From the NCBI GenBank assembly GCA_945878405.1, contig CAMCTJ010000015.1, positions 1 through 46,711 of the forward strand: DNA of 46,711 nucleotides, written 5' to 3'. Below the pieces are notes generated by a model that was not told where the DNA came from, made no database searches, and saw only the letters and a list, made by a program, of their open reading frames with translations. The position numbers and the translations under genes are program-made. The stretch comes from Bdellovibrio sp. ZAP7. Lineage in GTDB: Bacteria > Bdellovibrionota > FAC87 > UBA2466. Shown here one piece after another: positions 6,215 through 31,287 of this stretch. Within the stretch, counting starts at the first letter, position 1; each line of letters begins with the position of its first letter.

Positions 6215-7222
6215 TTATCCTTTTTTAAGAGCGCGGTCGATTTTCTCTTTGAAGCGCTCGAAAGGCTGAGCTCCTTGAATGAGAACTCCATTAACTACAA
6301 ATGATGGAGTAGCGGAGATTCCCACTTTCTCGCCTTCTTTACGACTGGTTTCGATCTTCTCCATGTGCGCTTTTTTGTCATAGCACTCAGCGAACTTGGC
6401 AGCATCGAGTTGCAATTTTTTTGCATACTCTTTCAGATCGGCGTCTTCCAGTTTGGCTTGATTTTCAAACAGCATATTATGCATCTCCCAGAACTTTCCT
6501 TGGTCATTGGCACAGCTAGATGCCAATGAAGCGGGAAGGGCTCGTGGGTGATTGGGGAGTGGCAAGTGGTGAAACACTATACGGACTTTTTCTGGTCCAT
6601 ATTCTTGCTTGATTCGCTCCAATGTCGGAACGGCTCGAGCACAGAAGGGACATTGAAAATCCGAAAACTCAACAATCGTCACGGGTGCTTTATTGCTTCC
6701 CCAAGTAGGTTGGCCTTCAACTGAAACAGCCACTTTTGGAGATTCAGGTTCTGTTACTAAAAGTTTTACTTTCGCAGCTTCCCTGAGTTTGGCGACATAC
6801 TGTTGTTGTTTTTCAAATTTTTGTCGGAACTTAAGATATTCTTTTACGTCTTCTTTTTTAATTCTTTTGTCAGTTAAAGACAGACCCTTAGAAGCAAGGA
6901 AATCAGTAATTTCTTTATCGGTGATTTCAGCTGCAGCTCCTCCCCCAGCTTCTTTTTCAAGCAGTTGTTCTCGAGACAAGTTCTGCTTTTTTGCTTCCAT
7001 TTCTAGGATCTTTTGATCCACGTACTCGTTAATGGCTTGTTCTTTAGTTCGGTAAGCTTCTTCTTCTAAATCAAACAAACGTGTTTTAACTTGAGCAAAA
7101 GCTTCCGAAGCTTTTACTTTCACCCCGTTAAATTCAGCAACAACGGGATCGCTTCCCCCGCCGGTACAGCCGGTCAGGATTAAGACGGTTAATGAAAAGA
7201 ATCCAATAAGTGTGTGTAACAT
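6215..7222 (-). CDS. Lipoprotein with SurA-N-like and DsbA-like thioredoxin domains
   Basis: A 335-residue exported thiol-disulfide protein. The N-terminus is a lipoprotein signal with lipobox LTGC (Cys19), so it is probably membrane-anchored facing the periplasm. Residues about 25-150 are helical and charged, like the SurA N-terminal chaperone region (EFNGVKVKASEA, then INEYVDQKILEMEA). Residues about 170-330 form a DsbA/DsbG-type thioredoxin fold with active site CPFC (191-194) in VEFSDFQCPFC and the cis-Pro segment SATPSFVVNG. It may bind unfolded exported proteins and set or correct their disulfides, fitting the many Cys-rich secreted proteins nearby (inference). AGAGGAGA precedes the ATG. 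It is the last gene of a seven-gene operon, ended by the hairpin at 6157-6198. Confidence 0.85.
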   Translation of the reverse strand: MLHTLIGFFSLTVLILTGCTGGGSDPVVAEFNGVKVKASEAFAQVKTRLFDLEEEAYRTKEQAINEYVDQKILEMEAKKQNLSREQLLEKEAGGGAAAEITDKEITDFLASKGLSLTDKRIKKEDVKEYLKFRQKFEKQQQYVAKLREAAKVKLLVTEPESPKVAVSVEGQPTWGSNKAPVTIVEFSDFQCPFCARAVPTLERIKQEYGPEKVRIVFHHLPLPNHPRALPASLASSCANDQGKFWEMHNMLFENQAKLEDADLKEYAKKLQLDAAKFAECYDKKAHMEKIETSRKEGEKVGISATPSFVVNGVLIQGAQPFERFKEKIDRALKKG

Positions 7223-7274
7223 AGTCGATTTTCTCCTCTGAAGAATCTACAGATTCGATAAAGATTAGCGGTCT

Positions 7275-7949
7275 TTAAGAGATTTTGAAACTTTTTTTGA
7301 TGGAATCCGTCAAAGAGATCGCTGCGTTGTGCCATGTTAAACTGGGGACGTGTTCCTGAAGCGAAGTAAAGACGCTTTCTGATTGCCCGCAAGGACGAAT
7401 TCCCGAGAAGAATTTTTGTTGAGGAGAAAAGCAAACGGACAAACCATGAGAAGAGATTCCGTTTTGAAATGAAAGCCCAAAGGAAACTATTTTTTTTTCC
7501 TCTAAATAAATGCCGAAGGGATTTTCTCCCGTTTGCGCAGGTAATTGCCAGGCTTGGCAACACTCAAGGACTGCCTGTCTTAGGGTTTCAACAAAGCGTC
7601 GAGCTTCTTTTGTGCTAAATCCAATCGATTTCAAATTTACTATAGGATAAATCACAATTTGACCTGGGCCATGGTAAGTCCATTTACCTCCTCGAGAAAC
7701 TTGAGCCAATCCAACCCCATTTTCTCTCAATTGAGAGGGCGACCACAGTAAATCATCTTGAGACGCATTCCTGCCGAACGTAAAAGTCGGTGAGGGTTCC
7801 GAAACAAGAAGGAAAAAGTTAGAGGGGTTTTTTGTTACTTGGCTGATGAGATCTTGTTGCAAGAGCTCGAGTTCTTGCCAGTCAATCTGTTGCCGGATGA
7901 CCGTTGTGGCTTTTAAGGAGCGGCTTGTTTCTGAGCATTCTTGAAGCAT
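7275..7949 (-). CDS. lipB: Octanoyltransferase LipB
   Basis: LipB moves the octanoyl group from octanoyl-ACP to lipoyl domains, the first step of protein lipoylation in the cytoplasm. Family motifs are clear: RGGKWTYHGPGQIVIYP, the Lys loop (EEKKIVSFGLSF) followed by SSHGLS, and GIRPCG with the catalytic Cys. I start at ATG 7949; an in-frame TTG at 7958 is also possible. Either way the gene overlaps the preceding pgsA-like gene by about 70 bases, an unusually long same-strand overlap suggesting translational coupling. A T9 run (7490-7498; A9 in the mRNA) encodes the catalytic Lys region and could slip. No lipA is visible in this window. LplA can substitute for LipB in other bacteria, but none is seen here. 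Confidence 0.93.
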   Translation of the reverse strand: MLQECSETSRSLKATTVIRQQIDWQELELLQQDLISQVTKNPSNFFLLVSEPSPTFTFGRNASQDDLLWSPSQLRENGVGLAQVSRGGKWTYHGPGQIVIYPIVNLKSIGFSTKEARRFVETLRQAVLECCQAWQLPAQTGENPFGIYLEEKKIVSFGLSFQNGISSHGLSVCFSPQQKFFSGIRPCGQSESVFTSLQEHVPSLTWHNAAISLTDSIKKSFKIS

Positions 7950-21117: not shown

Positions 21118-22191
21118 TTGAAAAGCGTTGATAAATTTCGAGTTGTAGCTCCTTGTCGAGCAGACCTAGCTGGCGGCACCTTAGACCTCTGGCCCCTCTT
21201 TTGTCTTATTCCGTCTTCTCTTACTTTAAATATCGCCCTTGATTTGTTTGCCAGAGTGGATTTTGAGGTTTCTGAGAATTTCCAGTTTGAAGTCGTTCTC
21301 AAAAACAAAAATGATCAGTATCAAATGACAGAAGTAGATCCCGCTCTTAATTTGGGCTCAGTTCCCGACTCGCTCAAATTCCCGGTTTTTATCCTTAATC
21401 AATTTCTGATCTTACAGCGGCAGATCCCCAGAGTTTCTATGCAGATTGATTTAGGTTCTGCCGTTCCTGTTGGGAGTGGATTAGGAGGGTCTTCGACTCT
21501 TTTAGTAGCTTTGGGAAGGGGGCTGTGCCGGGTTTGTTCTGATTTCACGGAGCAAGGATGGCAGTGGCGATTTCTCCAATGGGCTAAAGACACTGAAGCT
21601 GCTTTCTTAAAAGTGCCGACAGGTACTCAGGATTATTTAGCCGCGATTTTTGGTGGTCTTCATGGCTACGAGCACCAGTTAGGTCGGATTGAGCAGACAT
21701 CTTTTCCGCCTTCTGTATTCCAGCAGCTCAACGAACGGCTTTTAGTCATTTTTTCTGGCGAAAAACACCACAGCGGGATGAGTAACTGGGAAGTTTACAA
21801 GAAAGCAGTAGAGGGCGATCCGCAGGTCATAAAAGGATTAAAAGGAATTGCCGAGGTAGCCCACAAAATGGATGCTGTTTTGAGAACAGAAAAGGTGGAT
21901 TGGGGTACCGTTGGGAGGTACTTGGATACCGAATGGGATTTGAGAAAAACGACTTTTCGAGTAAGCACCCCTACTTTGGATTCCATCATCCAGCAGACTA
22001 AAGAAATATCGGGAGTTTTAGGGGTAAAGGTATGTGGAGCGGCCCAAGGTGGGAGCCTCGTGGTTTTAGTTGACCCCGGTAAAAAAGTTTCGGTCGTTGA
22101 AAGACTAAAAAAAGCCAACCTACAGGTCTTACCTACACAAGCGACATTGATGGGTGTATCTATACAAGATGCCCATCTCGATATGGATTAG
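21118..22191 (+). CDS. GHMP-family sugar kinase
   Basis: A 357-residue kinase of the GHMP family (galactokinase, homoserine kinase, mevalonate kinase). The N-terminus FRVVAPCRADLAGGTLDLWPL resembles that of D-glycero-D-manno-heptose 7-phosphate kinase and related sugar kinases. The ATP loop PVGSGLGGSST is at about residues 116-126. The C-terminal domain (about 230-350) is complete, with GVKVCGAAQGG. The substrate cannot be told; a sugar phosphate for cell-surface polysaccharide is one option. The TTG start (21118) is supported by AGAGGAAT. The gene lies 9 bases after the FtsB-like gene and 9 bases before an FAD oxidase, so the run looks like an operon. Confidence 0.75.
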   Translation: MKSVDKFRVVAPCRADLAGGTLDLWPLFCLIPSSLTLNIALDLFARVDFEVSENFQFEVVLKNKNDQYQMTEVDPALNLGSVPDSLKFPVFILNQFLILQRQIPRVSMQIDLGSAVPVGSGLGGSSTLLVALGRGLCRVCSDFTEQGWQWRFLQWAKDTEAAFLKVPTGTQDYLAAIFGGLHGYEHQLGRIEQTSFPPSVFQQLNERLLVIFSGEKHHSGMSNWEVYKKAVEGDPQVIKGLKGIAEVAHKMDAVLRTEKVDWGTVGRYLDTEWDLRKTTFRVSTPTLDSIIQQTKEISGVLGVKVCGAAQGGSLVVLVDPGKKVSVVERLKKANLQVLPTQATLMGVSIQDAHLDMD

Positions 22192-22200
22192 AGTGGTCTT

Positions 22201-23349
22201 ATGAAAAGGCCGTCTTTTGATTGTATTGTCCTAGGCCTGGGAGCCATGGGAAGCAGCACTGCCTATCAATTAGCCTTAAAAGGAAAAAAAGTTCTCGGGC
22301 TTGAACAATTTACATGTGCCCATGACCGTGGAAGCTCTCATGGCGAAACAAGACTGATTCGAAAAGCCTATTTTGAGCACCCAGATTATGTTCCACTTTT
22401 GGAGCGGAGTTATCAGCTTTGGAAAGAGTTAGAGCTTCGTAGCGGGAAAAAACTGCTGCATGAAACGGGGTTAGTGATTTTCGGAGAGGAAAAAAAAAGC
22501 CAGGTTTTGCAGGGCGTTCGGTTAAGCTCAAGCCAGTATGGGATTTCCATTGAAGAATGGGATTACAAGACGATTCAAAAGCGATTTCCACAAGCGAATG
22601 TTTCATCTGCTTTCATCGGACTGTACGAAAAATCCGGCGGCTACTTGGAAGTCGAAAACTGTGTTCAAACTTTTTGCGAGCAAGCTGGCCATTTAGGGGC
22701 TGAGCTCCATTTTGAAGAGCCTGTGAGTTCCTGGAAGAACACTGAAAGTGGTTTTGAAGTAACGACTTCAAAAGGGACCTATTATGCTCAGCAACTGGTC
22801 ATTACGACAGGTTCTTGGAATGGCAGGTTATTGAAAGAAGCAAATCCTTTTTTAAAAGTTCACCGGGCTCCTCTTTTTTGGTTTGAATCTCAAGGAAGCT
22901 TTAAAAAAGAAAAAGGCGTTCCGTGTTTCGCATTCGATGTTCCAGAGGGATTTTTCTACGGATTTACCGAAAGCGGGGGAGAAGTGAAAATCGCTCTTCA
23001 TCAGCCCCTTGGATTAGTAGAGGATCCGAGTAGAGAAGATCGAAGTGTGAAACCTGAAGAAGCTAAGCCAGTAACTGATTTTGTGGCCGAGTACCTGAAA
23101 GACATAAACCCAGAGCCCACCCGGGGCGTGATTTGCTTTTATACGCTTTCACCCGATACGCATTTTATTTTGGATGCTATTCCCGATTGTCCTGGTGGTT
23201 TTTGGGCAGGTGGGTTTTCGGGACACGGGTTTAAATTTGCAAGCCTTATCGGAGAGGTTCTCTCCGATTTGGTAATAGACGGAAAAACGCGATCCCCGGT
23301 TCAGTTTTTAGCTATGGAAAGACTTCAAGGAAAAAACAATGGCAAATGA
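22201..23349 (+). CDS. FAD-dependent MTOX/sarcosine-oxidase-like amine oxidase
   Basis: A 382-residue flavoprotein of the monomeric sarcosine oxidase / N-methyltryptophan oxidase family, which oxidises N-methylated amino acids or other secondary amines, giving an imine and hydrogen peroxide. The N-terminal Rossmann motif is VLGLGAMGSSTAYQLA; GSSHGETRLIR follows. Cys312 (ICFYTLSPDTHFILD) matches the residue that carries covalent FAD in this family. The end GFSGHGFKFASLIG is also typical. The substrate cannot be deduced; catalysis at an N-methyl group or a pipecolate-like ring are possible. The 3' end overlaps the next gene by 11 bases. Confidence 0.88.
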   Translation: MKRPSFDCIVLGLGAMGSSTAYQLALKGKKVLGLEQFTCAHDRGSSHGETRLIRKAYFEHPDYVPLLERSYQLWKELELRSGKKLLHETGLVIFGEEKKSQVLQGVRLSSSQYGISIEEWDYKTIQKRFPQANVSSAFIGLYEKSGGYLEVENCVQTFCEQAGHLGAELHFEEPVSSWKNTESGFEVTTSKGTYYAQQLVITTGSWNGRLLKEANPFLKVHRAPLFWFESQGSFKKEKGVPCFAFDVPEGFFYGFTESGGEVKIALHQPLGLVEDPSREDRSVKPEEAKPVTDFVAEYLKDINPEPTRGVICFYTLSPDTHFILDAIPDCPGGFWAGGFSGHGFKFASLIGEVLSDLVIDGKTRSPVQFLAMERLQGKNNGK

Positions 23350-23914
23350 AATTGAAAAAAGAGCAATGGGATATCGATTTTTTCCGGGAAATAAGTGGAG
23401 TTGGGCCGCTATCCGACAAACTTACAAAGACTTTTTTAGCCAAGGTATTAGTTTCTGGACCCAGCAATCCTTTGACATCCCACTCGAAACCACTGTTCCC
23501 GTGCTTCTGGTAATCATTGCAGTAGAAAGCATCGTGCAAGGACTCTTAAACGCCCGTTATGATTTTTTAAGTCGTTTTACGGGACAGTTGGGAGACTTAG
23601 CAGGTCAAGGGATCTTCATAGGTTTTGTCGTGCTCATGAAAGAATGGTTAGAAGCGCGAGGAAGTTTTAGAGAATACTTGGCGTTTGATACGTGCGCTCG
23701 TTTTATTCTTTTGCCTATCGCATTGTTCTCGGGGTTATCCACCCAGTTAGGGCTTTTGTTAAACTCTCTTGGGACGCTTTGGATTCTTTATGCTTTTTAT
23801 CGAACCTTTCATGTGGTTCTCACTCGGTTTTTAATTCTCGTTGGAATTGTGTGGGGTATCGCTGGTCTTGCGTTCTTAGCTGCTTTTATCACCGGTCTTA
23901 AAATGTTTGGATGA
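23339..23914 (+). CDS. Integral membrane protein of unknown function (Yip1-like look)
   Basis: A 191-residue hydrophobic protein with about five membrane segments (about 51-70, 85-102, 118-136, 140-155, 165-188). An N-terminal cytosolic stretch with GYRFFPGNKWSW precedes them. The layout recalls Yip1-domain proteins, but I cannot confirm this from motifs alone. AAGGAAAA sits before the ATG. The gene overlaps the flavoprotein gene by 11 bases, and the C25 protease ATG comes 10 bases after its stop, indicating one transcript. A role in transport or membrane trafficking would be a guess. Confidence 0.6.
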   Translation: MANEIEKRAMGYRFFPGNKWSWAAIRQTYKDFFSQGISFWTQQSFDIPLETTVPVLLVIIAVESIVQGLLNARYDFLSRFTGQLGDLAGQGIFIGFVVLMKEWLEARGSFREYLAFDTCARFILLPIALFSGLSTQLGLLLNSLGTLWILYAFYRTFHVVLTRFLILVGIVWGIAGLAFLAAFITGLKMFG

Positions 23915-23924
23915 GGAGGGTTTT

Positions 23925-25619
23925 ATGAAACCTTTATTGATCTCTCTAGCTTTTCTTTCCTGTACGGTCTGGGGAAGCAGTGTCAGACACTATTCTCTTT
24001 CTTCCCATTCTCGGGGCTCTTATGTGAATTGGGAGGGGGACTACCTTGAAGTGCCGGGTAACCCCCTTCTTCCGAAAATAACCACTCGAATTCTTCTTCC
24101 TTTTCACCAGGCCATCGAAAAAGTCGAGCTCAAGGTAGTTGAGGAACAAACGTGGACGGAAAAACTGGTTTTGGATCCCGTCCCGTTTCCAAAGCCCATG
24201 TGCGAGCCTGAGAAGAATGAGCTAAAAAAAAGTTTTCGAAAAGACGGTCTTTCATATTTTCCTGAAAATCCTTTGGGCGAAGCTTTTGTCGTAGCAAAAC
24301 ACGGATACAAAATTCTTTATGTGGACGTCTATCCAGCACGCTACGAATTTGAAAGTAAAAGCCTGACCTGGCTTCCTCAATCGGAACTGGTGGTTTATTT
24401 ACAGGATGATCCGAAACCTACGGGAGGCTTTGCTCCAACGGAGGAAGATCAAAAAGCGGCTTTGAGGCTTGCAGATCAATTGGATGAGTTGGAAACCTAT
24501 CCCTCAGTATTGGAAAAAAATCCCAGTGCCGAGTATTTAGTGATAGGACCAGCTGCATTTTTCGAAGACGAATCGATTCACTCGCTAAAATCTCTCATGC
24601 TTGAAAAACGAGCTCGAGGAATCACAACAAAAGCTCTAACCCTTGAAGAGATAGGAGCCAATTATCAAGGAGCGGACACTCAGGCCAAAATTCGAGAGGC
24701 CGTCAGGGCCCATTATCGCGAAGAAGGAACACGGTATCTTCTCTTGGTGGGAAATGGATACTCCATCACCCCTACGAAAATTCTCACTGTGAACATGAGT
24801 GAGGGAAACCTCCCTTCTGATCTCTACTTCGGTTGTTTGGATGGAGACTTTAAAAGTAAGCCCTACGATATGGCGTGTGAAGTAGCTGTGGGAAGAGCCC
24901 CCGCAACAACTATCGAGGATGTGCATGTGTTTGTCCGTAAATCTCTTGCGCTCCAGGATGTAAATGAGGGGGATCCTCTGGTTTGGAAGACGGTAAATTT
25001 CGGGGAGAAGTTGGATAGTTCTACTTACGCTTCTATGAGTCTTAAGATGCTTGAGATTGGCGGGATTGCAGGGCAGGGAGTTCCCACCGTGGGGTATCCG
25101 GCACAAGCAGAGTTTTATAAACTCTATGAGACACCCAAAGTGACTTACTCTTCAACTACCGTAATTCAAAGTTTAAAACTTGCGCCTTTCTATACTTTAA
25201 ATCACCTCGGCCATTGTCAGACGACGTATTGTTTACGGCTCAAAGCAGAGGTTATTCCCGAAGTGAAAACGAGTTTTCCCTTTTTTGGAATTACTCAAGG
25301 TTGCTTTCCGGGAAATATGCGACAAGCCAATTGGGCAAGTAAGATGATTAATTTGGCAGATGGAGGCGCGGGAGCTCTAGTAGCTAATTCAAATTATGGG
25401 TGGTATGAGCCCGGGGGAGGAAACGGCCACTCTAATCGGCTTCATACGATGTTTTACGATACAGTTTTCAAAGAAGGTTCCCGGGGCCTCGGTAAGACTT
25501 TATATCGCGCAAAAGAACGGCTGATTGATCAAGCCAATTCTAATTCCTATATGAGATGGGTGCTCTACGAGACCAATCTCTTTGGCGATCCGGAAGTAGC
25601 GCTCAGGTTTCCGAAGTAA
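23925..25619 (+). CDS. Secreted gingipain-family cysteine protease (C25)
   Basis: A 564-residue secreted cysteine protease. I start at ATG 23925, where AGGAGGG lies about 6 nt upstream; a farther start adds an acidic extension before the signal peptide. The signal peptide covers residues 1-17. The propeptide has the GNPLLPKITTRILLP pattern of C25 zymogens. The catalytic domain (about 200-560) carries His430 in NHLGHC and Cys460 in ITQGCFPGN; the 30-residue spacing is close to that in gingipains. It lacks the long haemagglutinin or C-terminal sorting domain of Porphyromonas gingipains. It is the last gene of the plus-strand series and converges, 9 bases apart, on a lipoprotein with a Kunitz-like domain. 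Confidence 0.85.
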   Translation: MKPLLISLAFLSCTVWGSSVRHYSLSSHSRGSYVNWEGDYLEVPGNPLLPKITTRILLPFHQAIEKVELKVVEEQTWTEKLVLDPVPFPKPMCEPEKNELKKSFRKDGLSYFPENPLGEAFVVAKHGYKILYVDVYPARYEFESKSLTWLPQSELVVYLQDDPKPTGGFAPTEEDQKAALRLADQLDELETYPSVLEKNPSAEYLVIGPAAFFEDESIHSLKSLMLEKRARGITTKALTLEEIGANYQGADTQAKIREAVRAHYREEGTRYLLLVGNGYSITPTKILTVNMSEGNLPSDLYFGCLDGDFKSKPYDMACEVAVGRAPATTIEDVHVFVRKSLALQDVNEGDPLVWKTVNFGEKLDSSTYASMSLKMLEIGGIAGQGVPTVGYPAQAEFYKLYETPKVTYSSTTVIQSLKLAPFYTLNHLGHCQTTYCLRLKAEVIPEVKTSFPFFGITQGCFPGNMRQANWASKMINLADGGAGALVANSNYGWYEPGGGNGHSNRLHTMFYDTVFKEGSRGLGKTLYRAKERLIDQANSNSYMRWVLYETNLFGDPEVALRFPK

Positions 25620-25628
25620 AATAGTCTT

Positions 25629-27086
25629 TTAGTAAGCTTGCATGAATGGAAGGGATTGAAAACTAATGCTAGCGACAAAGCTTCCGGAGTTATCTGAAGC
25701 GCATCCCGTATCGTTCACAATTAGGTAAAGTCTTCCTGAGCTGTAGTTCACACTTGTATTCAGATAACTTCCGACGAGGAATGGGGCTCCATTAACGCCA
25801 ATTTTTCCAATCAAAGCAATGTTTCTAAAGCTTTGGCCATCGGCTGCTTTGCAAGCATGGTAAGAAGTGTTTCCAACGCCATCCGCAGAGGAGTAAGATC
25901 CCTGACCATAGTTTACCTGGCCAGAAGTGGTAATACTCAAATTAGATGTATAATAACGACTATTGCTTGGTGAAACATCGACGCCCGTATCCACCCAGTT
26001 ATTAGAGCGGGAATCGACAGAAACTTGGCGAGTAACTGGAGTTCCACCGGAGTTGCCGCCGCATCGGCCAGCAGCAACTGCTTGTTGGCAATCTGAAAGA
26101 GAGTTGAAGGGACCTCGAGGAGCGCATCCGTCCATGCCCGTGTTGAGTTGGCAACTGGTTCCATTGAAATAATAACTATAAACTATGGCCATAGTGCAGG
26201 CTCCCCCACTTGTTCCCTGATTAAGTCCACAGGAATTGGGGACTGGTCCCGGAGTTGGATTTGGATAATACCCTCCACCGGAGACATTAATTGTAATTTG
26301 CGCATCACACATCGCTCCTGTGGTTTGCGATTGTGCGCGTACATAAATCGTTTTTGAACCAGCACTATTGAAGGTCATCCAGAATTGTGACCAGGAATTG
26401 TAATAGCGACCCGTCTCAGTTAAGTCGGCAGTCCAGACGTTTACAATTTTTATTTGGTCCCCGTATCCGTAGTAGGAACTTGCATTACTCTGTACTGAGA
26501 AATAGTAAGAACCACCCACTTGAGGGTAAGCGGCTGATCCATAACTGTAGTAATTTGAACTGTAGTAATTTGAAATCGCATAAGGTCCTTGAATGGAGCA
26601 GCTGGAATAAGGCGAAGAGGCAGGAGTAGTGGTGCTGCCCGTAAAGTTCAGAGTGATACTTCCAGTAGAGTAGGTACCTGCGGCCGTAGTAACTGTTACC
26701 GTGACGGAACCAGCGCCAGAGCTCGTGACTCCGACTTGTTGGACTCCAGTAGAGCTTCCGACAAAGCTTGCTCCGATGGAATTTGTACCCAATTGAAAAT
26801 TATAAGAGTTACTCGAGCTGCCATAGGCAAACAGATAAATCACTTGTCCTACGTTTGCTGATTGGCTGGGAGCTGCAACCACATTCAGGCTGGCAACTAT
26901 ATTATTAGTTACAGAGGAAACTTGGCCATTTGCAAAAGGATCTAATGTGGGGATGACTGTTTGTGTGTCCTGAGGAGCTGAAACGAACTGAGCCATCTTG
27001 TTCGATTTACCACAAGCTGAAATTAAAACGGTTAAAGCGATAAAGCTTAGGATGCTGTAAGAAGATTTCTTCAGTTGAGCTCTCAT
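25629..27086 (-). CDS. Lipoprotein with Kunitz-like (BPTI-type) domain
   Basis: A 485-residue lipoprotein. I start at ATG 27086, with GAGGT 6-7 nt upstream; an in-frame GTG four codons earlier overlaps that site. The lipobox is LISAC (Cys25 in this numbering). Residues about 60-155 are a Thr/Ser/Gly-rich beta domain (Ig-like); 165-275 are Tyr/Ser-rich with repeats such as SNYYS. Residues about 286-342 (DNA 26061-26231) hold six cysteines laid out like a Kunitz inhibitor: GGAC before a variable loop, YYFNGTSC, GC and FNSLSDC. Spacing is 11, 15, 9, 12 and 9, with small indels from BPTI. The C-terminal part (about 350-485) is beta-rich. It could inhibit serine proteases outside the cell; inhibition of the adjacent C25 protease is only a hypothesis. 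Confidence 0.7.
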   Translation of the reverse strand: MRAQLKKSSYSILSFIALTVLISACGKSNKMAQFVSAPQDTQTVIPTLDPFANGQVSSVTNNIVASLNVVAAPSQSANVGQVIYLFAYGSSSNSYNFQLGTNSIGASFVGSSTGVQQVGVTSSGAGSVTVTVTTAAGTYSTGSITLNFTGSTTTPASSPYSSCSIQGPYAISNYYSSNYYSYGSAAYPQVGGSYYFSVQSNASSYYGYGDQIKIVNVWTADLTETGRYYNSWSQFWMTFNSAGSKTIYVRAQSQTTGAMCDAQITINVSGGGYYPNPTPGPVPNSCGLNQGTSGGACTMAIVYSYYFNGTSCQLNTGMDGCAPRGPFNSLSDCQQAVAAGRCGGNSGGTPVTRQVSVDSRSNNWVDTGVDVSPSNSRYYTSNLSITTSGQVNYGQGSYSSADGVGNTSYHACKAADGQSFRNIALIGKIGVNGAPFLVGSYLNTSVNYSSGRLYLIVNDTGCASDNSGSFVASISFQSLPFMQAY

Positions 27087-28958: not shown

Positions 28959-28992
28959 GTGTTACTTTTCCGGCAATTTGAGGGGCTTTTTT

Positions 28993-31287
28993 ATGGTTTT
29001 GGAAACAGTTCGAGAGTTCTTTGTAACTCGTTATCGTGGTCTGGGCGTTCGCGCGCTTTTTAAGGAATGGCGTTCTCTCTTTACCCTGAAGGATCTGCCT
29101 CTGGATCTTCGAGCAGGGCTATTAGTGGCAGGAGCTGCAGTTCCACTTTCTTTGGCAATTGCTTTGGGTTCCCAAGATGACCCAGAACTGGGGCTTCTTA
29201 GTGCCGTAGTGGGAGGCGTGATTTGCTCACTGTTTGGGGGCTCGCGCTTATCCGTCAGTGGACCGGCCAATTCCATGTTGATACTCGTTGCTGTAATTGT
29301 GGAACGAGCGGGCGTTGAGGGCCTCTTCTTTACAGGTTTTTGCTGCGGTTTAATTCAGCTGCTGATAGGGAGTTTTGGTCTAGGTAGATATGTTCGCTAT
29401 ATTCCGATTCCTTTGGTTGCAGGATTTACCGCTGGCCTAGGCGTGATTATTTTAGTGGGACAGCTCCCCAGAGCTCTCGGGCTTCCCGTTCCTCCCGCCG
29501 GTGATGTTCTTTCGGTATTAACTCATCTGGGGAGTCTCCTACATGAAAGTCAGCCTCGAGTGCTCATCGTTGCTCTGACTTCGATTCTTATCGCTCAGAT
29601 AGTCCCTCGAATTTATCCCAAACTTCCTGGGTCTTTTTTTGCTCTTCTCTTTTCAACTCTCTTAGTAGTAATCGCCGATTGGGAACTGCCTCAGATTGGA
29701 AGATTTGCAGGCGAGTTTAGTTGGCCCTCTGTTCCTGGATTTCCAAAGACAGGAGAGTTTGAGTTAGTTGAGATGGCTTTCCTTCTTTTTGCACTAGCTT
29801 CGTTGGAATCTAGACTTTCATCCATTGCAGCGGACAAAATTATTCCTGGAGAAAAGCATGATTCTGATCAAGAACTCATTGGACAGGGAATCGGCAATGT
29901 AGTTGTGGCGTGTTTTGGAGGGATTCCAGTTGCTGGTGTGTTATCACGTTCTGTTCTCAATATTCGAGCAGGTGCCCAAACTCGGCGAGCGGCACTCTTC
30001 CACGGGGTGTTTGTTTTCTTGGCTTTGGTGTTTTGTCGTCCGATCCTAAGTCATATTCCCATGGCAGCTCTGTCGGGAGTTTTGCTCTCAATTGCAATCA
30101 ACATGATCACTGCGCGAGAAATTGGTCATGTCTGGCGAACTTCTCCTGTCGAAGCCATTGTTTATTGGGTTACTTTTGGGACCGTTGTTTTGATTGACCT
30201 GATGGCGGGAGTCCAGATGGGGATTTTGGCAGCGCTTCTTATAGCACTCTGGAATCTAGGAAGAGCGAAATTGTTTTTTCAAAACACAGAAAAACAGGAA
30301 GTCATTCGAGCTTCCTTCAGTGGAAATATTACTTTCATGGCTTCCAAAAACTTCGAGGTGCTCACGAAACGGGTGCGAAGTGTGCCCGTGGTTAAAGCAG
30401 TTGTGATCGATTTGGGAGAGGTAAGAATGCTGGATACCACTGGGGCTTCGATGTTGCTCCAGTTTGTAAAAGAAATGAAAGAAAAGAGCATTCGGATTAT
30501 TTTAAAGTCCCTAAACCGAGAGAGCAGGGAAGTTTTAGGGAGAGTGGATGTCGATAAGATTGCCCAAGAATGCCACGTGGCTTCTGAATCAGAAATTGCC
30601 GAAACTTTATTAAATGAAAAGGTTTACGATCCCAGAGAAGCGCTTTTATTTGGGATTGAGCGGTATCGAAAAGAGCGAAAGAAGGCTTATGCCGATCTCT
30701 TTGATAAACTCGGGCAGGCACAAAAGCCGCATACTTTATTTATTACTTGCAGTGATAGCCGGATCAATCCTTCTTTGATTACTTCCAGCGAGCCCGGAGA
30801 AATGTTTATTGTCCGAAATGTTGGGAATATTGTCCCGGCAATGGGTACGGACGATACGCCAGCTGAAGGCGCAGCCATTGAGTTTGCTCTGGGAGCACTC
30901 GGGGTTGAGGAAATTATTATTTGTGGTCATACTCGTTGCGGAGCTCTGAAAGGAGTTTTTCACGGGATTGATCCCCAGGTTTTCCCTCATGTGGCTAAAT
31001 GGGTAGAACCCATCGGTGTGGAACGGAAGAAACACCCCGGAATTACGGATCCTGAAGAATTTGTGAAAGTTCATGTCATTGAACAGGCAAGAAATGTTTT
31101 AAGCTATCCAATTGTGCGGAAGAAGATCAGAGAAGGGCAAGTCAAAGTGCATTGCTGGATTTATGATGTTCAATCAGGAGAATTTCTTGAATGGACCGGA
31201 AAAGATTTTGAATTCGTTCCCGTGGGGCCCGAATCTCTGCATGGAAATATCCAGGCACTTCTTTCACCAACTCAGAGCGACTACTGA
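28993..31287 (+). CDS. SulP anion transporter fused to STAS and beta-carbonic anhydrase domains
   Basis: A 764-residue fusion. I start at ATG 28993 with GAGGGG upstream rather than a TTG five codons earlier. Residues about 30-425 are a SulP (SLC26-like) transporter with 10-12 helices, including LPLDLRAGLLVAGAAVPLSLA and GGSRLSVSGPANSM. A STAS domain follows (about 440-545, IDLGEVRMLDTTGASML). Residues about 555-760 are a beta-class carbonic anhydrase: Zn ligands Cys586 and Asp588 (TCSDSR), His646 and Cys649 (CGHTRCGA). The likely task is bicarbonate import coupled to its conversion to or from CO2 at the membrane, feeding anaplerosis or pH control. SulP-anhydrase fusions are known in other bacteria; the substrate here is inferred. 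It overlaps the CAP gene's 3' end by 7 bases. Confidence 0.9.
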   Translation: MVLETVREFFVTRYRGLGVRALFKEWRSLFTLKDLPLDLRAGLLVAGAAVPLSLAIALGSQDDPELGLLSAVVGGVICSLFGGSRLSVSGPANSMLILVAVIVERAGVEGLFFTGFCCGLIQLLIGSFGLGRYVRYIPIPLVAGFTAGLGVIILVGQLPRALGLPVPPAGDVLSVLTHLGSLLHESQPRVLIVALTSILIAQIVPRIYPKLPGSFFALLFSTLLVVIADWELPQIGRFAGEFSWPSVPGFPKTGEFELVEMAFLLFALASLESRLSSIAADKIIPGEKHDSDQELIGQGIGNVVVACFGGIPVAGVLSRSVLNIRAGAQTRRAALFHGVFVFLALVFCRPILSHIPMAALSGVLLSIAINMITAREIGHVWRTSPVEAIVYWVTFGTVVLIDLMAGVQMGILAALLIALWNLGRAKLFFQNTEKQEVIRASFSGNITFMASKNFEVLTKRVRSVPVVKAVVIDLGEVRMLDTTGASMLLQFVKEMKEKSIRIILKSLNRESREVLGRVDVDKIAQECHVASESEIAETLLNEKVYDPREALLFGIERYRKERKKAYADLFDKLGQAQKPHTLFITCSDSRINPSLITSSEPGEMFIVRNVGNIVPAMGTDDTPAEGAAIEFALGALGVEEIIICGHTRCGALKGVFHGIDPQVFPHVAKWVEPIGVERKKHPGITDPEEFVKVHVIEQARNVLSYPIVRKKIREGQVKVHCWIYDVQSGEFLEWTGKDFEFVPVGPESLHGNIQALLSPTQSDY

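Follow-up and report, generated by a model that had tools for sequence, protein, structure and literature searches.

The locus described here raises the question of whether a protease of the gingipain family and a lipoprotein carrying a putative Kunitz-like domain, encoded by adjacent genes, act together, and if so, in what way. It lies in the window, i.e., the whole stretch of DNA analysed (46,711 nucleotides), which is contig C15 of the 2.24-Mb genome (G000) of a freshwater Bdellovibrio sp. The protease gene (23925–25619, + strand) codes for 564 aa from its ATG and the lipoprotein gene (25629–27086, − strand) for 485 aa, likewise from an ATG. Both reading frames are intact and they converge with 9 bases between their stop codons (25620–25628), exactly as described in an initial annotation, made from the sequence without database searches, which saw in the two products a possible attack-and-protect pair, for example against proteases released during predation. 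In the congener G001 the stop codons are 87 bases apart, so this spacing is not conserved. Just upstream of the protease gene lies a gene for a membrane protein (23339–23914, + strand), orthologues of which, 51–60% identical, mark the syntenic site in G001 and in a second congener, G002. The genes for a GHMP kinase, an FAD oxidoreductase, the membrane protein, and the protease (21118–25619) are located on one strand, either overlapping or separated by approximately 10 bases, and the protease gene may thus close an operon; the search for promoter and terminator signals gave none exceeding shuffled sequence. Further along the window (28978–31287) a SulP transporter, a STAS domain, and a carbonic anhydrase are fused in a single frame of 769 aa; the fusion is present in G002 as well, but in G001 these parts occupy two neighbouring frames. 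The literature searched contained no earlier account of this protease/lipoprotein architecture.

The first of the two products is a predicted preproprotease of peptidase family C25. Its match to Peptidase_C25 (Pfam PF01364, E=1.3e-37, 130.3 bits with a cut-off of 23) covers profile positions 1–373 of 374, and its syntenic orthologue in G001 is 58% identical. A putative Sec signal peptide, read from the sequence, comprises residues ca. 1–18 (MKPLLISLAFLSCTVWGSS; 23925–23978, + strand) and is followed by a gingipain-type prodomain (residues ca. 19–195; 23979–24509, + strand) and the catalytic domain (residues 204–559; 24534–25601, + strand), whose end is also the C terminus of the protein. In the PDB, a profile of five C25 relatives matches gingipain R and 5mun, a structure of the prodomain of Lys-gingipain (E=4.1e-5), the latter aligning with the segment before residue 195, while His430 (25212–25214) and Cys460 (25302–25304), invariant in the five relatives, align with His211 and Cys244, the catalytic dyad of gingipain R (1cvr). 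In the gingipain RgpB, the prodomain keeps the zymogen latent by inserting an arginine in the S1 pocket (PMC4357240). Owing to a prodomain of the gingipain type, the protease probably carries its own latency device, predicted to be inhibitory. An identity with PorU, the type IX secretion sortase, was rejected on scores of 28–35 bits against NCBIfam cut-offs of 420–450. A Pfam search of the class (15 genomes) found C25 proteases in every genome, with 1–6 matches in each, sometimes in tandem. In G000 (L081:5184–7873, contig C13) and in G002 (L083:4395–6929, contig C63) another C25 protease gene is convergent with a gene coding for a glutamine cyclotransferase-like protein (PF05096, E=3e-17 in G000).

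The lipoprotein, which has orthologues in G001 and G002, gave no match in Pfam or NCBIfam when searched whole, and its architecture was resolved domain by domain. A lipoprotein signal peptide with the lipobox LISAC (residues 21–25), read from the sequence, ends in the predicted lipidated Cys25 (27012–27086, − strand). It is followed by two Ig-like domains, the first spanning residues ca. 64–152 (26631–26897, − strand) and beta-rich in a low-confidence AlphaFold model (pLDDT about 60–78), and the second, with Cys163 and Cys260, spanning residues ca. 160–270 (26277–26609, − strand) and weaker than the first in AlphaFold and Foldseek. The Foldseek matches of both stretches, obtained with this low-confidence model, are bacterial and other Ig-like tandems. 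Next come the six-cysteine domain (residues 286–342; 26061–26231, − strand), which is absent from the G002 lipoprotein, and a C-terminal domain (residues 352–485; 25632–26033, − strand) resembling LecA/PA-IL. The lipoprotein nature of the product and the six cysteines had been recognized in the initial annotation, which missed the tandem Ig-like domains and the LecA-like one.

The C-terminal domain appears to be LecA-like and is putatively carbohydrate-binding. The three best PDB matches of its profile, built of five copies, are all LecA/PA-IL (E=0.015), and PF07828 matches two of the five members (best E=1.1e-4), the copy in the window giving no match. Tyr393, Asp459, Asp465, and Asn466, the candidate calcium site, align with the calcium-site residues Tyr36, Asp100, Asn107, and Asn108 of LecA; the G002 copy has lost this motif. 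In the 369 genomes searched across the phylum, the LecA-like domain was confined to this genus and one genome of a sister genus. A lectin-like domain of this kind is also found in a protein of 1878 aa encoded elsewhere in the genome (L018:3896–9532, contig C5), together with 14 FG-GAP repeats and a glycine-rich C-terminal domain.

The cysteines of the six-cysteine domain, 286, 297, 312, 321, 333, and 342 (all six are present in three of the four known copies of the module), are spaced as C-x10-C-x14-C-x8-C-x11-C-x8-C, which departs from the canonical pattern (8/15/7/12/3 in BPTI), and the Kunitz alignment covers only the core from C2 to C5. With the domain alone as query, the PDB yielded a single entry at E<1, Amblyomin-X, through its Kunitz domain (E=0.1). 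When the four copies were combined in a profile, 13 of the 177,635 PDB sequences matched at E<=10, and the first 11 of these are all Kunitz domains (E 0.07–0.6), among them ornithodorin, a venom protease inhibitor, the collagen VI Kunitz domain, anntoxin, TFPI, NACI, and ixolaris, while two column-shuffled profiles in which the cysteines were kept fixed gave no PDB match at E<=10. Against a Kunitz HMM built of seven animal Kunitz inhibitors, 0, 6, 1, and 25 of 5000 cysteine-fixed shuffles of the respective four copies reached the real score, and the hhalign score was 24.3, whereas none of 300 shuffles exceeded 20.1. PF00014 has no match in three copies and one of 14.5 bits in the fourth, below its gathering cut-off of 21 bits. 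Two AlphaFold runs, with three alignment rows each, reached low pLDDT values of 60.6 and 40.5; the predicted secondary structure, a hairpin followed by a C-terminal helix, fits the Kunitz fold. Foldseek with the low-confidence model of the domain returned noise only and no Kunitz domain.

The residues that make a Kunitz domain an inhibitor are less well preserved. Kunitz domains acting on trypsin-like targets usually have Lys or Arg at P1, a feature that does not strictly define the family, whereas in all three six-cysteine copies this position is occupied by Thr. The most conserved stretch of the module is PRGPF-S-C and not the inhibitory loop, and Gly12 varies between copies. One of the copies, from G001, lacks C2 and C4 together, the two cysteines joined in Kunitz domains by a disulphide bridge (14–38). 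Of the Kunitz pattern noted initially, the six cysteines stand, and the similarity extends beyond their spacing, but the GGAC loop is not conserved, being replaced by GYC or TVC in relatives. On these sequence comparisons the domain is Kunitz-like and probably homologous to Kunitz domains without being a member of PF00014; the wording "Kunitz-like" is preferred because the Pfam score is below the cut-off, C1 and C6 are spaced non-canonically, P1 is Thr, and the AlphaFold models are of low confidence. A canonical role of the module as a trypsin-type inhibitor seems unlikely.

Clear copies of the module are confined to this genus among the 369 genomes of the phylum. Three other matches of the module search lay near E=0.001–0.005, two of them with stops, and the PF00014 matches in the same genomes, short or broken by stops and near the cut-off, were treated as chance. 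In a collection of genome contigs, a scan with the domain found only two congeners from Lake Lanier, whose metagenome bins correspond to G001 and G002, and a chance match to an aldolase, while a scan with the full-length lipoprotein found no match; no relatives were found in viral contigs or plasmids. Within the genus, the module is borne by three unrelated exported proteins. Apart from the lipoprotein of G000 and G001, it is situated at the C terminus of an S41 tail-specific processing protease of G002 (L020:8276–10453, contig C55), whose nearest relative (G012, 70% identical) ends immediately before the position of the module, and in a Gly/Arg-rich secreted protein of G001 (L029, ca. 6841–7590, contig C102), where it is the copy devoid of C2 and C4; the G000 homologue of the latter protein has a different C terminus. 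Because its three host proteins are unrelated and have homologues without it, the module behaves as a cassette, which may be spreading onto exported proteins within the genus.

The initial annotation had named conservation in relatives as a check on the pair, and the pair is indeed conserved in G001, where the order of genes (membrane protein, protease, convergent lipoprotein, and a fumarase-family hydratase) is the same as in G000, with 58.5% identity of the proteases and ca. 49% identity of the lipoproteins (L016:12141–13505 in G001). Within the lipoprotein, conservation is highest in the Kunitz-like domain (64% versus 42% and 54%). The identity of the proteases and their G+C content are in line with those of the neighbouring genes (62% for the GHMP kinase, 65% for DAO, and 51% for the membrane protein), which gives no indication that the protease gene was recently transferred between G000 and G001. 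In G002, the membrane protein gene is followed after 12 bases by the lipoprotein gene (L017:729–1961) and the hydratase gene. The C25 orthologue is absent from the G002 genome, which is not devoid of the family as a whole, since Pfam found three other C25 genes there. Missing from the G002 lipoprotein is exactly the Kunitz-like segment; its N-terminal/Ig-like and LecA-like parts are kept.

In a DnaE tree, G000 and G002 are grouped and G001 lies outside (support 98/95). The G002 DnaE gene (contig C110) is spread over several reading frames, which suggests errors in the sequence of this bin or a broken gene. As the tree joins G002 with G000, the simplest assumption under vertical descent is that G002 lost both the C25 orthologue and the Kunitz-like domain, and the losses would have been separate, because the coding stretch of the LecA-like domain separates the Kunitz-like segment from the protease gene and a single deletion cannot explain both absences. 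The distances between the lipoprotein genes, which place G000 nearer to G001 than to G002, disagree with the species tree, perhaps because the gene has changed fast in G002 or has recombined. The joint absence in G002 hints at a link between the protease and the module, and since only three species of the genus were compared, it is a single case.

The reading that we prefer, tentatively, is that the Kunitz-like module of the envelope-anchored lipoprotein serves to bind a partner that is protease-related, most probably the co-encoded C25 enzyme, rather than to act as a trypsin-type inhibitor. The protease would be exported as a zymogen with its own gingipain-type prodomain. The lipoprotein would be a lectin-type adhesin anchored in the envelope, with the two Ig-like domains as spacers, the Kunitz-like module, and the LecA-like domain binding carbohydrates. 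Through the module, this partner would be held or restrained at the envelope; foreign serine proteases would not be the target, and in this lipoprotein the module would be kept only in genomes that have the C25 orthologue. Against such a link speak the numbers of C25 genes in the class (1–6 per genome, with three others kept in G002), which make proximity to some C25 gene less special, the convergent and not operonic arrangement of the two genes, the prodomain, which would already provide latency, and the Gly/Arg-rich protein of G001, among whose neighbouring ORFs seen there is no C25 gene.

Several of the same facts would suit a module that serves for structural or adhesive binding and is unconnected with proteolysis, the adjacency to the C25 gene and the co-absence in G002 being a coincidence or the result of a single regional replacement. 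Such a role, which we consider the lesser of the two possibilities and on the whole doubtful, accords with the abundance of adhesion-type domains in the lipoprotein, the frequency of C25 genes in the class, the copy without C2 and C4 in an unrelated G001 protein, and the lack of a Kunitz-like neighbour beside the other G000 C25 genes read (L081, L082). Nevertheless, the only module gene of G000 would stand beside one of its three C25 genes by chance in ca. 0.3% of cases, according to our own estimate, and the pair is kept in G001, while neither the domain nor the protease is present at the G002 locus. Clearly less probable is the proposal closest to the initial annotation, a surface Kunitz-type inhibitor protecting the cell from serine proteases of a predator, prey, or host. 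The Kunitz resemblance speaks for it, and bacterial Kunitz inhibitors are possible because a protein with five Kunitz domains, the first of which inhibits factor Xa, has been reported from Acinetobacter baumannii (PMC11511053). It is hard to reconcile with Thr at P1 in the three six-cysteine copies, the variable Gly12, the altered C1 and C6 spacing, the copy without C2 and C4, and PF00014 scores scarcely above noise. Thus, of the pairing idea put forward initially, conservation in G001 and joint absence in G002 partly support the association, but they do not demonstrate an attack-and-protect role, given the convergent genes, Thr at P1, and the protease's own prodomain; nothing indicates predation. 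That the six-cysteine domain is unrelated and resembles Kunitz domains by convergence, as the Pfam score below the cut-off, the non-canonical spacing, and the Foldseek result with a low-confidence model might suggest, is improbable given that all of the 11 best PDB profile matches are Kunitz domains, that cysteine-fixed shuffles score lower, with hhalign likewise above its shuffled maximum, that C2 and C4 are missing as a pair, and that the predicted hairpin and helix fit.

A bolder extension of the preferred reading, in which the mobile Kunitz-like module is a dedicated partner of clan CD cysteine proteases, carried here by a lectin lipoprotein and holding their activity at carbohydrate-bound sites of the envelope, is unlikely as it stands; if true, it would mean that a classical scaffold of serine-protease inhibitors has been re-used for a cysteine protease. 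Should the link proposed here be true, the lipoprotein could be counted as a candidate for the natural partner of a gingipain-family protease. Kunitz-type domains are regarded as a hallmark of animals and few are known from bacteria (PMC11511053), and a divergent module moving among exported proteins in one genus, and absent together with the adjacent protease, would offer a testable case of adoption of the Kunitz scaffold outside animals.

Compared with the Kunitz/BPTI family (PF00014, MEROPS I2), the module shares the six cysteines, the YYF-N...C core, Gly before C4, F-x-S-xx-x-C, the C-terminal helix (here predicted), and profile similarity beyond the cysteines. It differs in how C1 and C6 are spaced, in having Thr at P1, in a score below the Pfam cut-off, and in its location in a bacterial lipoprotein. 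The C-terminal domain resembles the galactophilic lectin LecA/PA-IL (PF07828) in its profile and in candidate calcium-site positions (Tyr, Asp, and Asp/Asn-Asn), but it is fused to the end of a lipoprotein and has two cysteines. The protease corresponds to gingipains R and K (peptidase family C25) in the positions of the catalytic His and Cys, the prodomain, and the catalytic domain; unlike them, it has no C-terminal secretion domain, and the catalytic domain ends the protein. A. baumannii F6W77 is likewise an exported bacterial protein with Kunitz-related domains; however, its five domains are classical, with Arg at P1 in KABP1, the one inhibiting factor Xa (PMC11511053), whereas the single domain encoded in the window is divergent, has Thr at P1, and belongs to a lectin-type lipoprotein whose gene adjoins that of a protease. 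Finally, in the staphopain–staphostatin and C10 protease–inhibitor pairs, the gene for a bacterial cysteine protease also adjoins that of a protein partner, as may be the case here. The inhibitors in those pairs are small and co-transcribed with the protease, and staphostatins, which have a different fold, are thought to be cytoplasmic (PMC3462683), while the genes described here are convergent and the possible partner is an exported lipoprotein.
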